From positions 4,464,001-4,528,000 of the forward strand of contig NZ_CP075171.1 in assembly GCF_021379005.1 (NCBI RefSeq): DNA of 64,000 nucleotides. Direction: 5' to 3'. Position 1 is the stretch's first letter; every line of letters starts with the position of its first letter. This document shows positions 53,513 through 63,045 of the stretch, piece after piece. Source of the stretch: Leptodesmis sichuanensis A121 (GTDB lineage Bacteria; Cyanobacteriota; Cyanobacteriia; Leptolyngbyales; Leptolyngbyaceae). A program made the position numbers and the translations under genes. A model generated the notes under the pieces. The model was not told where the DNA came from, searched no databases, and was given only the letters and a program-made list of their open reading frames with translations.

Positions 53513-53851
53513 AGGTTCGTTCTCTTAAGCGGCTTGGGTTTCTGTAAAACGTCTATTCAGCATGGGGTAGATGGCACGATCGCAATGGAGGAAAACGTCC
53601 CGTTATTTTATTCAGGAACTTTTAAGGATTAAATGCGAAATGTGCCGATGTTTTGACTGGAAATTTTTTGGTTAGCAGGGTAAATCCGTAGCAACTTGTC
53701 TTAGCCAGTTTGCCCAAATCTCAGTGTTCAGTATCAACTTGCCGCGATCGCCCATTTAGTGGGCTTGAGTATTGTAGGTACAGGTCTAAATCGATACATT
53801 CAATTAGCTGTCATAGCTTTTTTACCCCCTGTTCATGATGAAGAAGCACGA

Positions 53852-54967
53852 ATGGTGAGAACCAATACCAAAACTGGCCTTGTGAACACTGCTCTGTCCA
53901 ATTCCCAACTTCGGATTCAGCAGCAATATCGTCAAATTCAACGGGAATTGCTGGGAGGGTTAGTTTCCCTGTTTGCCGTATTTCTGCTGGGTACAGGCTG
54001 GTATCACCTGGTAGAAGGTTGGCGTTGGGTGGAGGCCGCTTATATGTCGGTAATTACCCTGGCGACTGTTGGATTTATGGAAGTGCGGCCTCTGGGCGAT
54101 CGTGGGCGGATTTTCACAATTATGCTGATCGTGCTGGGAGTGGTGAGTATTGGGTACATCGTTAACCGATTTACAGATGCCCTAATTCAGGGATATTTTC
54201 AGGAAGGACTGCGATTGCAACGGCTGCAGCGACAAATGGAATCTCTGTCAGGGCATTACATCATCTGTGGATTTGGCCGCATGGGGCAACAAATTGCCGC
54301 TGAATTTCAGGCCGAAAAAATTCCGTTTGTGGTGGCCGATTCCGAAACTGAACCACTACAAATTGCCACCCAGTTAGGCTATACCGCCTTGCAGGGGGAT
54401 GCCACTCGTGACGAAACGTTGACTCGGCTTGGGATTCAGCGGGCTGCCTGTTTAATCACCGCCCTACCCTCCGATGCAGAAAATCTCTACACGGTTCTCT
54501 CTGCCAAGACTTTGAATCCCAAAATTCGAGCGATCGCCCGCGCCAGTACGGAAGAAGCCCTGGTTAAACTGCAGCGGGCCGGAGCGGATACGGTCGTGTC
54601 GCCTTACATTACCGGGGGCAAACGGATGGCCGCTGCCGCGCTCAGGCCACAGGTAATGGATTTCGTGGATGGCATTCTATCGGGCGGTAGTCGCACCTTT
54701 TATATCGAAGAATTTGAACTGGATCCGGAGAGCTGTCCTTACCTGGGGCAAACGTTGGGAGAAGCCCGGTTACGGGCGCAGTGTGGCGTGCTGGTGTTGG
54801 CCATTCGGCGGGTGGATGGTACGCCGATCGTTGGCCCTACTGCAGACACGATTTTGATGCAGGGCGATCATTTGATTTGCATGGGAACCGCCAACCAGAT
54901 CCGGCACCTGAATCAGATTTTGTTCCCGATGCGATCGGATTTTCCCCGCCCACCGAAGCAGGCATAG
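53852..54967 (+). CDS. Potassium channel-like protein with TrkA-N (RCK) domains, altered filter
   Basis: 371 residues from ATG 53852. A two-helix pore (LLGGLVSLFAVFLLGTG, and IFTIMLIVLGVVSIGYIV) with pore loop ITLATVGFME is followed by a Rossmann RCK-N domain (IICGFGRMGQQIAAEF) and an RCK-C part. The selectivity filter reads TVGFM (ACT GTT GGA TTT ATG near 54062-54076) where family members have TVG[YF]G, so the second filter glycine is Met. Acidic nucleotide-binding residue in VVADSE. Frame open upstream to 53759 but without support. The following spacer is 400 bases. Confidence 0.85.
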   Translation: MVRTNTKTGLVNTALSNSQLRIQQQYRQIQRELLGGLVSLFAVFLLGTGWYHLVEGWRWVEAAYMSVITLATVGFMEVRPLGDRGRIFTIMLIVLGVVSIGYIVNRFTDALIQGYFQEGLRLQRLQRQMESLSGHYIICGFGRMGQQIAAEFQAEKIPFVVADSETEPLQIATQLGYTALQGDATRDETLTRLGIQRAACLITALPSDAENLYTVLSAKTLNPKIRAIARASTEEALVKLQRAGADTVVSPYITGGKRMAAAALRPQVMDFVDGILSGGSRTFYIEEFELDPESCPYLGQTLGEARLRAQCGVLVLAIRRVDGTPIVGPTADTILMQGDHLICMGTANQIRHLNQILFPMRSDFPRPPKQA

Positions 54968-55367: not shown

Positions 55368-56348
55368 ATGAACATGGATGTTAGTTTGATTCTCTCCAAC
55401 ATCCTGAATCCGCCAGTCCTATTCTTTTTCCTGGGGATGACAGCCATCTTTGTGAAGTCAGATCTGGAAGTTCCGCCACCCATTCCCAAGCTGTTTTCGC
55501 TTTATTTGCTCTTTGCCATTGGCTTCAAGGGTGGCGTGGAACTGGCGAAGAGTGGGGTCAATCAAGAGGTGCTGCTCACGCTTGCGGCAGCTATTTTGAT
55601 GGCCTGTGCTGTGCCTGTCTACACGTTTTTTATTCTGAAACTGCAACTTGACCCTTACAATGCCGCCGCGATCGCAGCAACTTACGGATCGATCAGTGCG
55701 GTTACTTTCATTACTGCCAGTTCTTTCCTGGAACAACTCAATGTCAACTTTGATGGCTACATGGTTGCAGCACTCGCATTAATGGAGTCTCCAGCAATTA
55801 TTGTGGGGTTGATCCTCGTCAATCTGTCTACGTCCGAGGAAGAAAGCGATCGCGAGTTTTCTTGGCCTGAGGTATTGCAGGAAGCCTTTTTGAATGGGGC
55901 TGTCTTTCTACTGGTGGGTAGTCTACTGGTCGGTGTACTGACCGGAGAACGCGGGTGGCAAGTTCTGTCTCCCTTTACTCAGGATATGTTTTACGGTGTG
56001 CTGACCTTCTTTCTGCTGGATATGGGGTTGGTAGCGGCCAAAAGAATCAAGGATCTGAAAAAAATCGGTGTATTTCTGATCTCATTTGCCATTCTGACTC
56101 CAATATTGAACGCAGGGATTGGATTGCTCATTGCCCGCCTGATTGATATGCCTGAGGGAGATGCTTTACTGTTCTCAGTTCTGTGTGCCAGTGCATCTTA
56201 CATTGCTGTTCCAGCGGCGATGCGTTTAACAGTTCCAGAAGCAAACCCCAGCCTTTACATTTCAACAGCCCTGGCAGTCACATTTCCCTTCAATATCATT
56301 GTCGGTATCCCCTTGTATCAATACGGCATTAATTTGCTCTGGAGTTAA
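55368..56348 (+). CDS. sbtA: Sodium-dependent bicarbonate transporter SbtA
   Basis: High-affinity HCO3- uptake at the plasma membrane, part of the CO2-concentrating mechanism. 326 residues, about ten membrane helices in two inverted halves: NPPVLFFFLGMTAIFVKSD, SLYLLFAIGFKGGVELA, AAIAATYGSISAVTF in the first half and CASASYIAVPAAMRLTVPEAN in the second. The cytoplasmic loop TSEEESDREFSW joins the halves. Two ATG codons (55368 and 55374) follow an AGGCGG tract. sbtB starts 3 bases after the stop, so the pair is co-translated. Confidence 0.97.
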   Translation: MNMDVSLILSNILNPPVLFFFLGMTAIFVKSDLEVPPPIPKLFSLYLLFAIGFKGGVELAKSGVNQEVLLTLAAAILMACAVPVYTFFILKLQLDPYNAAAIAATYGSISAVTFITASSFLEQLNVNFDGYMVAALALMESPAIIVGLILVNLSTSEEESDREFSWPEVLQEAFLNGAVFLLVGSLLVGVLTGERGWQVLSPFTQDMFYGVLTFFLLDMGLVAAKRIKDLKKIGVFLISFAILTPILNAGIGLLIARLIDMPEGDALLFSVLCASASYIAVPAAMRLTVPEANPSLYISTALAVTFPFNIIVGIPLYQYGINLLWS

Positions 56349-56351
56349 ATC

Positions 56352-56666
56352 ATGCATCCAGTTAAACGGATCGAAATCATTTCTGACTCTGTAGAGTTAG
56401 GGAAAATTGTGGAAGCGTTGGAAAAGATAGGTGTTACCAGTTACTCCATCATCCACAACGTATCTAGTAAGGGCATCAAGGGAACTGTGTTTGATGACTC
56501 TGCTGTGACCATGCTGGACAATGTCTACGTGATTGCGTTTTGTTCCCCTGATAAAGCAAAGCCAGTGGTAGAAGAGATTCGCCCTATTTTGAACAAGTTT
56601 GGTGGCTCTTGCTGGATCTCAGAGGTCATGGAAATTCGTTCTGTCAGGTGTATTGCGTCCATGTAA
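56352..56666 (+). CDS. sbtB: PII-like carbon-sensing protein SbtB, R-loop absent
   Basis: Trimeric PII-like regulator that binds adenyl nucleotides (cAMP, ADP, AMP) and controls SbtA. 104 residues. KRIEIISDSVELGKIVEALE, the T-loop region HNVSSKGIKG, and VYVIAFCSPDKAKPVVEEIRP and GGSCWISEVMEI are typical. The C-terminus ends RSVRCIASM with one Cys (C100); the CGPxGC redox loop of the Synechocystis protein is missing. GGAG lies within the end of sbtA. The carbonic anhydrase gene follows after 21 bases. Confidence 0.94.
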   Translation: MHPVKRIEIISDSVELGKIVEALEKIGVTSYSIIHNVSSKGIKGTVFDDSAVTMLDNVYVIAFCSPDKAKPVVEEIRPILNKFGGSCWISEVMEIRSVRCIASM

Positions 56667-56687
56667 AGCAGGTTGAGGCAGATCAGT

Positions 56688-57383
56688 ATGAGTCGGATCA
56701 ATGGGTTTGTGGGGCGGCGGGATGTTTTGAGGCTCGCAGGGGCAGGGCTGGCAGCGGCGATCGTCGGCATGACTTGGGATGGTCGGTCTGTCAGAGCAGA
56801 AGATGCGCTTCCCCCGGATGCTGCGTTACAAAAGCTTTTGAGTGGCAATCAGCGATTTGTACAGCAGCATTCTGATCACCCCCATCAATCGGCAAAGCGG
56901 CTGCAAGAGGTCGCCTTTGCCCAACATCCCTATGCCACTATTCTCAGTTGTGCCGATTCGCGAGTTCCGGTTGAGATTGTGTTTGATGCAGGCATTGGTG
57001 ATTTGTTTGATATTCGTGTTGCTGGCAATATTGTCACAGCGGAAGTATTAGGCAGTCTGGAGTATGCAGCAGCGCTTTTGGGCACCAGTCTGATTATGGT
57101 ATTGGGGCATGAACGCTGTGGAGCCGTGACTGCTGCTGTGCAGAATGAATCCCTCTTGGGTAGCATTGGCTCTTTGGTCAAGGCGATTAAACCTGCCGTT
57201 AACCGGGTCAAAGATGGTGCAGATGACTTAATTGAACAGGCAGTCGTTGAAAACGTACATTACCAGATTGAACAGATGCAACAGCGCTCTTCCGTCCTGA
57301 CTCAACTGGTTAATCAAGGAAAGGTCAAGATTGTGGGTGGGCGTTATGACCTGGACACAGGAGTGGTGTCGGTGGTGACATAG
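56688..57383 (+). CDS. Tat-exported beta-carbonic anhydrase
   Basis: 231 residues from the ATG at 56688 with GAGG upstream. The N-terminus has the twin-arginine motif GRRDVLRLAGAGLAAAIVG and a likely cleavage after VRAED-like residues, so the enzyme should be outside the plasma membrane or in the thylakoid lumen. Zinc ligands: Cys in ILSCADSRVPVE with its Asp-Arg dyad, and His and Cys in GHERCGAV. Resembles the external EcaB class. Being third in the sbtA operon, it likely makes bicarbonate from CO2 for uptake or recaptures leaking CO2. Confidence 0.94.
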   Translation: MSRINGFVGRRDVLRLAGAGLAAAIVGMTWDGRSVRAEDALPPDAALQKLLSGNQRFVQQHSDHPHQSAKRLQEVAFAQHPYATILSCADSRVPVEIVFDAGIGDLFDIRVAGNIVTAEVLGSLEYAAALLGTSLIMVLGHERCGAVTAAVQNESLLGSIGSLVKAIKPAVNRVKDGADDLIEQAVVENVHYQIEQMQQRSSVLTQLVNQGKVKIVGGRYDLDTGVVSVVT

Positions 57384-60856: not shown

Positions 60857-61939
60857 ATGCTAGCGGGTACGAATAGAATCTTCAGTCGGTTGTTAGCATC
60901 TTTCGCAATTGTGGTAATCACGCTGCCTGGCTGCACGATCAATCAGGCGAACAGTTCAGGTTCCTCGAAACGCGCCATTAGCACAGAGATTAAAATTGAC
61001 GGTTCCAGTACGGTTTATCCCATCAGTGCTGCAATTGCAAAGGAATATGGCAGACTTAAAAGCGGCACGAAGATAGAGGTCAAATTCTCTGGTACCAGTG
61101 CGGGGTTTAACAAATTCTGTGCTGGAGAAACCCAGATTAGCAATGCCTCACGCCCTATCCTGTTACAGGAGGCTAGAGTTTGCGCCAACTCTGGTGTTCC
61201 CTTTATCGAATTGCCAATCGCCTTTGATGCCCTGACGTTAGCAGTCAATCCTCAAAATGATTGGGCCAAAGACATTACCCTCGATGAATTGCGGACAATT
61301 TGGGAACCGGCAGCGGAAGGCAAGATTAACAACTGGAATCAAATTCGTTCCTCCTATCCCAACCGACCGTTAAAACTGTTTGGTGCAGGACAGGACTCTG
61401 GTACTTATGACTATTTCAATGAAGTTGTTATCGGTAATCCTGATGCTAGCCGGAGAGATTACACCAGCAGTGAAGATGACAATGTGTTGGTAAGTGGCAT
61501 CGAAAAAGACCCTAACGCCTTGGGCTACATTCCTTTAGCCTACTTTGAGGCGGCTCAAGGCCGGCTCCGAGCGTTAGGAGTTGATAACGGGCAAGGGGCG
61601 GTGTTGCCCTCCCGTGAAGCCGTTACAAACGCTAAATATCAACCATTCTCACGACCATTATTTATCTACGTGAATGCGAAAGCAGCTCAAGAGAATCCGA
61701 AACTGCAAGAGTTTGTTGAGTATTACTTGACCCATGCTGGGCGAGTGTCTAATACGGTTGGGTATATTCCACTGCCAGCAGAGGCATACCGTTTAGCTAC
61801 CATTCAATTCACAAAAGGTGAGATTGGTACTGTCTTTGAAGGAGTGCCCCAACCCAACGTCACCATTGCAGAATTGCTTCGCCGACAAGCCGTTTTTCAA
61901 CTGACTGAGGAGCAAAGAACTAAACTTGAGCCAAAATAA
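60857..61939 (+). CDS. Phosphate-binding lipoprotein, SphX/PstS family, copy 1
   Basis: 360 residues. Signal peptide with lipobox VITLPGC (Cys at about residue 26), so anchored to the membrane. Phosphate-site motifs IDGSSTVYPISAAI, GTSAGFNKFCAGETQISNASRPI and GAGQDSGTYDYFNEVV are intact. An in-frame TAA 12 bases upstream fixes ATG 60857 as the first possible start. It is about 60-70 percent identical by eye to the next gene, a tandem duplication. No pstC, pstA or pstB adjoins, so it must borrow a permease. Its place beside arsR suggests a role in phosphate/arsenate handling. Confidence 0.92.
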   Translation: MLAGTNRIFSRLLASFAIVVITLPGCTINQANSSGSSKRAISTEIKIDGSSTVYPISAAIAKEYGRLKSGTKIEVKFSGTSAGFNKFCAGETQISNASRPILLQEARVCANSGVPFIELPIAFDALTLAVNPQNDWAKDITLDELRTIWEPAAEGKINNWNQIRSSYPNRPLKLFGAGQDSGTYDYFNEVVIGNPDASRRDYTSSEDDNVLVSGIEKDPNALGYIPLAYFEAAQGRLRALGVDNGQGAVLPSREAVTNAKYQPFSRPLFIYVNAKAAQENPKLQEFVEYYLTHAGRVSNTVGYIPLPAEAYRLATIQFTKGEIGTVFEGVPQPNVTIAELLRRQAVFQLTEEQRTKLEPK

Positions 61940-61974: not shown

Positions 61975-63045
61975 ATGCTTCACAAAACACTCATCAAACC
62001 AGGGCTATCCTTTTCTGCGATCGCGGCAACACTCGCGTTAGCCGCCTGCACCTCTCCCCCCCAGCCTGAACAGAAAACCTTGATTGGGCCACCTGCTGGA
62101 AAGATTGTGGCAGATGGGTCCAGTACGGTCTACCCGATCACTGATGCCGTTGCCAAAGCTTTTCGGGCGACACCAGAGGGAGCAAACGCCGACATTGAAG
62201 TTAAATTTGCAGGTTCCACGGCAGGATTTCGGCGATTCTGTGCCGGAGAAACAGACATCAATGATGCCTCCCGCCCAATTTCGAAAGAAGAACTATCAAC
62301 GTGTGTCAACAATGGGGTTGCTTTTATCGAGTTACCCGTGGCCTTTGATGCCCTGACTATTGCGGTCAATCCCCAAAACTCCTGGGCAAAAGACATGACC
62401 GTTGCTGAACTGAAGCAAGTTTGGGAACGAGCCGCGCAGGGCAAGATTACTAACTGGAATCAAATCCGATCGTCCTATCCCAACCAACCTCTCAATTTGT
62501 TTGGAGCCGGGGCTAATTCTGGCACCTTCGATTACTTCAATGAAGTGATCACGGGTGGGAGAAACAATGCCCGCTCTGACTATGTGGGCAGTGAAGACGA
62601 CAACGTTCTTGTGCAAGGAATTCAAAAATTTCCGGGAGCACTGGGGTACATTCCTCATGCATATTACGTAAAGAACAAGAATGCCATCAAAGCGCTGCCG
62701 ATCGACAACGGTAAAGGGGCCGTTCCGCCGGATGATGAGAATATCAAAAATGCTTCTTATCAGCCCCTGTCTCGTCCCCTGTTTATTTATGTCAACTCCA
62801 AAGCAGCTCAGGACAAGCCAAAACTACGGGCGTTTGTAGAGTTCTATCTGAAACAAGCACCCACGTTAGTGGAGAGCGTAGGCTATTTACCCTTGCCACA
62901 GGAGGCTTACCGACTTGCAGAGATTCAATTTACCCGAGGCGAAATTGGTACGGCTTTTGAGGGGATTCCAGAACCGAACATCACAGTGGCTGAGTTGTTG
63001 CGTCGGCAGACCACATTCCAGGCAGAACAAGCCAGTAAGCCGTAG
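61975..63045 (+). CDS. Phosphate-binding lipoprotein, SphX/PstS family, copy 2
   Basis: 356 residues. Lipobox LALAAC (Cys at about residue 24), then VADGSSTVYPITDAV, GSTAGFRRFCAGETDINDASRPIS and GAGANSGTFDYFNEV, the same order as copy 1. GGAGGAG precedes the ATG by about 10 bases, 35 bases after copy 1, so both are on one transcript. Main differences from copy 1 are in the signal peptide and the region after it. Binding-site residues appear conserved, so it likely binds phosphate. Confidence 0.92.
   Translation: MLHKTLIKPGLSFSAIAATLALAACTSPPQPEQKTLIGPPAGKIVADGSSTVYPITDAVAKAFRATPEGANADIEVKFAGSTAGFRRFCAGETDINDASRPISKEELSTCVNNGVAFIELPVAFDALTIAVNPQNSWAKDMTVAELKQVWERAAQGKITNWNQIRSSYPNQPLNLFGAGANSGTFDYFNEVITGGRNNARSDYVGSEDDNVLVQGIQKFPGALGYIPHAYYVKNKNAIKALPIDNGKGAVPPDDENIKNASYQPLSRPLFIYVNSKAAQDKPKLRAFVEFYLKQAPTLVESVGYLPLPQEAYRLAEIQFTRGEIGTAFEGIPEPNITVAELLRRQTTFQAEQASKP

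Follow-up and report, generated by a model that had tools for sequence, protein, structure and literature searches.

In the genome of the cyanobacterium Leptodesmis sichuanensis A121, genes for an SbtA2-type transporter, its PII-like partner SbtB2 and a beta-carbonic anhydrase (CA) with a twin-arginine (Tat) signal follow one another on one strand, an order that recurs in many relatives. Here, we propose, with a probability of roughly one half, that the three genes encode a conserved inorganic-carbon module, in which SbtB2 would gate SbtA2 while the Tat-exported CA would equilibrate CO2 and HCO3- at the outer face of SbtA2. The proposal builds on the gene order and its conservation, the subfamilies of the proteins, the intact CA residues and the Tat signal found in every relative examined.

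Locus and gene layout

The genome consists of one contig of 5.35 Mb, of which the window, i.e. the whole stretch of 64,000 nucleotides that was analysed, covers positions 4464001-4528000. In window coordinates, the features of the locus are as follows:

55368..56348, + strand: sbtA2, ATG start, 326 aa; Sbt_1 PF05982 (5e-126), Na+-dependent bicarbonate transporter superfamily
56352..56666, + strand: sbtB2, ATG start, 104 aa; P-II PF00543 (6e-12)
56667..56687, + strand: sbtB2-CA gap, 21 bases, free of promoter-like and terminator-like sites on the + strand
56688..57383, + strand: Tat-signal beta-carbonic anhydrase, ATG start, 231 aa; Pro_CA PF00484 (3e-39)
56688..56798, + strand: predicted twin-arginine signal peptide of the CA, Arg10-Arg11, cleavage after Ala37 (by eye)
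56949..56963, + strand: Cys88-Ala-Asp90-Ser-Arg92 of the CA, first zinc ligand and Asp/Arg dyad
57108..57119, + strand: His141-Glu-Arg-Cys144 of the CA, remaining zinc ligands

These coordinates (55368-57383) agree with an earlier note, made from the sequence of the window, which had described three genes separated by 3 bases (sbtA2-sbtB2) and 21 bases (sbtB2-CA). The open reading frame of the CA is listed from a TTG at 56673, and the 231 aa and the 21-base gap follow from the ATG at 56688. On the + strand, neither gap yielded a site resembling a promoter or a terminator. Elsewhere in the window, the gene for a potassium-channel-like protein with TrkA domains (53759-54967) precedes sbtA2 by about 400 bases and shares its strand, and two similar phosphate-binding-protein-like genes, recognised by eye, lie in tandem at 60857-61939 and 61975-63045.

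Conservation of the gene order

Viewed from the transporter side, sbtB2 is present in 138 of 146 SbtA2 loci and the complete trio in 54 of the 134 assessable ones, i.e. those with sbtB2 and enough downstream sequence. The 146 loci comprise 54 three-gene loci, 80 without such a CA, four with too short a downstream sequence (L033, L057, L086, L092) and eight without sbtB2, the latter two groups being excluded from the 134; with the eight sbtB2-less loci counted, the ratio becomes 54/142. Two loci with a partial CA (L015, L017) were kept within the 54, a locus with a CcaA-like CA beside SbtA2 (L115) was not counted as three-gene, and the SbtA2 loci include neither the fragmentary matches of G265, G227, G249 and G284 nor matches outside those listed.

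From the enzyme side, considering the best 80 of 334 relatives, 75 of the 78 loci with at least 1.9 kb of upstream sequence have sbtA2-sbtB2 immediately before the CA gene, a rate that holds for the nearest relatives of the window enzyme (its clade) and not for all Tat CAs. Among the 75, 74 were called by script and L223, whose two matches touch, was added by hand; three loci lack the upstream pair (L229, L282, L287) and two were too short (L231, L259). The hosts include Nostoc, Calothrix, Scytonema, Fischerella and Leptolyngbya, among others. Both surveys bear out the suggestion that transporter, regulator and Tat-signal enzyme are linked and, since the order recurs to this extent on either side, it is not a matter of chance. 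Mapped onto the SbtA2 tree, the presence of the CA switches a minimum of 8 times, which indicates that the enzyme has been gained or lost and, together with the 80 of 134 loci without an adjoining CA, that it is not essential to the transporter.

Two loci show other arrangements. At L115 (genome G097), SbtA2 and a PII-like gene are followed by a CcaA-like CA that lacks a Tat signal and is 26% identical to the window enzyme; it looks as though another kind of CA had been taken up here. At L180 (G256), SbtA2 and SbtB2 (56% and 35%, respectively) lie on one strand and a Tat beta-CA on the opposite strand, facing away, in a divergent trio.

The transporter

When solved structures were searched with phmmer, Synechocystis SbtA was the sole match for the window transporter, in two stretches. 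In a joint alignment, the protein is 23-27% identical to ten SbtA1 proteins, whereas its identity to a second cyanobacterial subfamily is 57-89%. The latter was represented by 145 proteins, which were among the matches listed when 291 genomes of the class were searched. The protein thus does not group with the slr1512-type proteins, and the canonical SbtA1 label was rejected. The second subfamily spans genomes from 5 Mb down to 1.6-1.9 Mb, the small ones carrying a single such match; because the available text of PMC9477826 describes SbtA2 in this manner, as an SbtA subfamily apart from SbtA1 with members in every alpha and beta group, the window transporter fits the published SbtA2. We consider it best matched to SbtA2, a putative assignment made by subfamily description. 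The five best structural matches of the SbtA2 model are all SbtA structures, which points to the SbtA fold, although the pLDDT of the model is only moderate (74; other models 39-55). The genome holds no second PF05982 protein elsewhere.

Four side chains of SbtA1, namely S114, Y140, S324 and S327, are reported to bind HCO3-, and alanine at any one of these positions lowers transport to about 10-40% (PMC8352866). In the window protein, serines 110 and 277 match S114 and S324, while Leu136 and Ala280 stand where SbtA1 has Y140 and S327; the reference SbtA1, L190, is two residues shorter, which shifts the numbering of the second half by 2. The four columns read S, L, S and A in all 146 SbtA2 proteins, so that two of the four reported side chains are kept. 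According to the available part of a review citing Rourke 2026a, SbtA2 is a high-flux, chloride-dependent HCO3- transporter with a Km of about 150 uM, for which uptake was found in E. coli (PMC13249358), and HCO3- is the presumed substrate of the window protein as well. A point of caution is that, for the SbtA of Prochlorococcus MED4, which we guess to belong to the same subfamily, no detectable transport is reported in the available text of PMC4275256.

The regulator

The best solved relative of SbtB2 is CPII of Thiomonas intermedia K12 (1e-5), and a profile of 35 sequences matched CPII at 2e-9 versus 0.06 for Synechocystis SbtB. An AlphaFold model of SbtB2 (pLDDT 78, with the T-loop and the last six residues unsure) has a predicted PII fold, and a Foldseek search with this model placed CPII at ranks 1-8, the ADP-bicarbonate form first, and SbtB at rank 9; the identity of SbtB2 and CPII is 22-24% over the aligned part. 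CPII is a PII-like protein that has been crystallised with ADP and bicarbonate, and is a carboxysome-associated protein from outside the cyanobacteria. SbtB2 ends in RCIASM and has no CGPxGC R-loop, a motif found in about half of SbtBs and hence not decisive (PMC10991534, available part). With sequence and fold nearer to CPII and CGPxGC absent, the canonical SbtB label was rejected. Besides SbtB2, the genome has just one PF00543 match, located elsewhere.

The names sbtA and sbtB given in the earlier note are therefore apt at the level of PF05982 and the PII fold, but not in the sense of canonical SbtA1 and SbtB1, from which identity, R-loop and the CPII match set the proteins apart. Likewise, bicarbonate import by SbtA under the control of SbtB, which the note gives as known, has been established for SbtA1 and SbtB1, while the window transporter belongs to the second subfamily and its regulator is CPII-like; gating of SbtA2 by SbtB2 is plausible, and how SbtB2 works is still to be explained according to the available part of the review (PMC13249358).

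Three cysteines of SbtB2, Cys64, Cys87 and Cys100, occur in 54, 54 and 53 of the 54 three-gene loci versus 57, 66 and 33 of 84 others, but the tree offers too few independent pairs (3 if only supported branches count, 8 otherwise) for an association with the CA to be drawn from these counts. The alignments from the enzyme side comprised the window SbtB2 with 34 of 69 usable sequences (A1, in which L224 differs at its end) and the window SbtA2 with 23 of 71 usable sequences (A2).

The enzyme

The twin-arginine signal noted earlier on the CA was confirmed by eye: the N-terminus, MSRINGFVGRRDVLRLAGAGLAAAIVG...SVRA/EDA, includes the RR pair, a hydrophobic stretch and a VxA-type site with predicted cleavage after residue 37. 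A lipobox is absent from the CA, whose first cysteine is residue 88. All 54 operonic relatives visibly carry the RR pair, and the Tat motif was matched in 80 of 80 enzyme-side relatives (the best 80 of 334). The zinc-ligand and Asp/Arg positions are intact, with the roles of Cys88, Asp90, Arg92, His141 and Cys144 following the general beta-CA pattern; of the 54 operonic CA rows, at least 98% keep the active-site columns and at least 90% keep Arg143. Among solved structures, the mycobacterial beta-CA chains 2a5v and 1ym3 come closest.

A quick tree covered 69 CAs, with 28 of its 66 branches open and many weak; on this tree, the operonic label needs 3 changes, compared with 21.5 in shuffles. Roughly one in two operonic rows entered the tree, giving 27 operonic rows including that of the window, and the fragment or fusion rows L151, L172, L185, L186, L203 and L207 were dropped; L180 was labelled non-operonic, even though SbtA2 and SbtB2 adjoin its CA on the opposite strand. 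EcaB was represented by that of G218, a genome in which the SbtA stretch matches the Synechocystis structure at 100% identity; this EcaB falls in a clade separate from the window CA, at 42% identity, and orthology with slr0051 (EcaB) was thus rejected. The carboxysomal CcaA was rejected as well, as the enzyme lies outside the CcaA clade and carries an export signal. A further 13 retrieved CAs, non-operonic but very similar in their signal, group in a clade of their own. Two of the dropped rows, L172 (G204) and L186 (G037), have a beta-CA-like domain at the end of longer open reading frames (555 and 264 aa) and are possible fusions.

The sole other beta-CA of the genome, L001, belongs to the CcaA clade, and no match to an alpha-CA was found in the genome. 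With one PF05982 protein, no alpha-CA and a CcaA-type second beta-CA, the module holds the only SbtA-family transporter of the genome and the only exported-type CA found in it.

Spacing and transcription signals

With CA starts chosen by rule, the gap between sbtB2 and the CA gene is at most 60 bases in 58 of 75 enzyme-side loci (median 28), including four with a 4-base overlap. Such short gaps favour a single transcript, and the genes of the window are probably co-transcribed; a second promoter is possible at the 12 of 75 loci where the gap exceeds 100 bases.

Upstream of sbtA2, the RbcR site ATTA(G/A)N5(C/T)TAAT, as printed in the available part of PMC13249358, was found in none of 145 loci, with about 1 expected. 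A block common to the window and its near relatives was also sought, and the one recovered, GCCATA...TCTAC, is shared by 3 of 52 three-gene loci and is not convincing. An ATTGACA element, on the other hand, lies upstream of sbtA2 in 35 of the 52 three-gene loci (1.7 expected) and in some two-gene loci, about 100-117 bases before the gene, for example in L044, L016 and L011. It is accompanied by a -10-like GATAAT/GATACA box and then CATGATTCAA downstream, and resembles a promoter or operator that these loci have in common; the element is absent upstream of the window sbtA2.

Proposed function and alternative explanations

In the proposed module, the Tat pathway would carry the beta-CA across the membrane, so that the enzyme would sit on the outer side of the membrane bearing SbtA2, presumably the plasma membrane. 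There it would hold CO2 and HCO3- in equilibrium within the thin layer feeding SbtA2, and this medium-affinity, high-flux transporter would have its HCO3- topped up from arriving or leaking CO2, while the CPII-like SbtB2 would gate it from the cytoplasm.

Rough estimates with assumed rate constants, diffusion and thickness indicate that a periplasm of 20-40 nm would convert 0.01-4% of the CO2 in one pass. An additional diffusion layer of 50-200 um on the outside would raise the capture to 33-100% in the same kind of estimate, again with assumed constants, and a layer of a few micrometres would suffice only at high enzyme load. Recapture of leaked CO2, as the earlier note had suggested, would accordingly be small per pass in a thin periplasm, and would be substantial only given an outer layer or enzyme in very high abundance. 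Since capture depends on the outer diffusion layer, an external CA would suit filaments or mats better than stirred single cells. The estimate would also agree with the null result reported for Synechococcus elongatus, in which added external CA had no discernible effect (PMC11360081, available part), a result that, taken by itself, speaks against the proposed module.

The best-placed alternative, which we regard as possible but unlikely, is that the CA resides in the thylakoid lumen and serves NDH-1 CO2-uptake complexes or proton balance, the operon being shared only through a common response to carbon limitation. Tat signals are not known to distinguish plasma from thylakoid membrane. The genome also encodes two ChpXY (CupA/CupB-type) proteins. 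An external location is left unsettled by the Tat signal since Synechocystis EcaB, which has one, is mostly thylakoid (PMC11360081) and interacts with CupA/B (PMC10096703), as stated in the available parts of these sources. The window CA, however, falls outside the Synechocystis-type EcaB clade (42% identity) and has no lipobox cysteine, and the enzyme-side loci (best 80 of 334) show the link to SbtA2-SbtB2 in 75 of 78 cases; these points speak against the alternative.

We find it rather improbable that SbtA2 mainly exchanges or releases HCO3-, with the exported CA interconverting HCO3- and CO2 for pH or for the dissipation of excess carbon. The replacement of Y140 by Leu and S327 by Ala in all 146 SbtA2 proteins speaks for such a role, and the reported chloride dependence would fit; the HCO3- uptake by SbtA2 reported in E. 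coli speaks against it (PMC13249358, available text). More doubtful still is a pairing within the thylakoid, where SbtA2 would deliver HCO3- to the acidic lumen for the Tat-imported CA to convert, with a proton, into CO2, dissipating excess carbon and protons. The algal bestrophin-CAH3 pathway would be the counterpart of such a pairing. Finally, that the neighbourhood is a historical accident, in which three functionally unrelated genes were co-inherited, is very improbable: the relatives do share ancestry and the CA was gained or lost several times, but the order persists over many genera and families despite varying spacing, and the operonic CAs cluster apart from other Tat CAs.

Significance

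SbtA2-SbtB2 and Tat beta-CAs are each already known, and no description of the SbtA2-SbtB2-CA trio was found in the open-licence literature searched, although others may already have noted it. What exported CAs do in cyanobacteria is, according to the available part of PMC11360081, unknown, and an operon-like cluster that ties one exported-CA clade to one transporter offers a direct genetic test of this role. The trio also represents a natural transporter-regulator-enzyme set for carbon-uptake engineering. The available part of a previous survey states that SbtA was sought with slr1512 at an identity of at least 30% and that ecaB-type genes are scattered (PMC9120777); as SbtA2 lies at 23-27%, a survey of this kind would be expected to miss it beside ecaB-type genes, and the slr1512 cut-off suggests why SbtA2 can be overlooked.

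Comparison with known systems

The proposed module resembles SbtA1-SbtB1 of Synechocystis (slr1512-slr1513) in the fold of the transporter and the adjoining gene for a PII-fold partner. It differs in transporter identity (23-27% to ten SbtA1 proteins), in the replacement of two HCO3- side chains, and in a regulator that lacks CGPxGC and is nearer to CPII; the available parts of the sources describe no exported CA accompanying the SbtA1-SbtB pair. SbtA2-SbtB2 of marine Synechococcus (Rourke 2026a, via PMC13249358) likewise pairs a transporter of a non-SbtA1 subfamily with its own PII-like partner, and no carbonic anhydrase is mentioned in the available part of that review. EcaB of Synechocystis (slr0051) is, like the window CA, a beta-CA with a twin-arginine signal; it has a putative lipoprotein attachment site (PMC11360081, available part), whereas the window CA has no lipobox cysteine. 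In the Synechocystis-like genome, the short locus L201 around the EcaB gene holds no match to SbtA2 or SbtB2. CPII of Thiomonas intermedia K12 is the best match of SbtB2 in both sequence and structure, at 22-24% identity, but comes from a non-cyanobacterium, where it is associated with the carboxysome.
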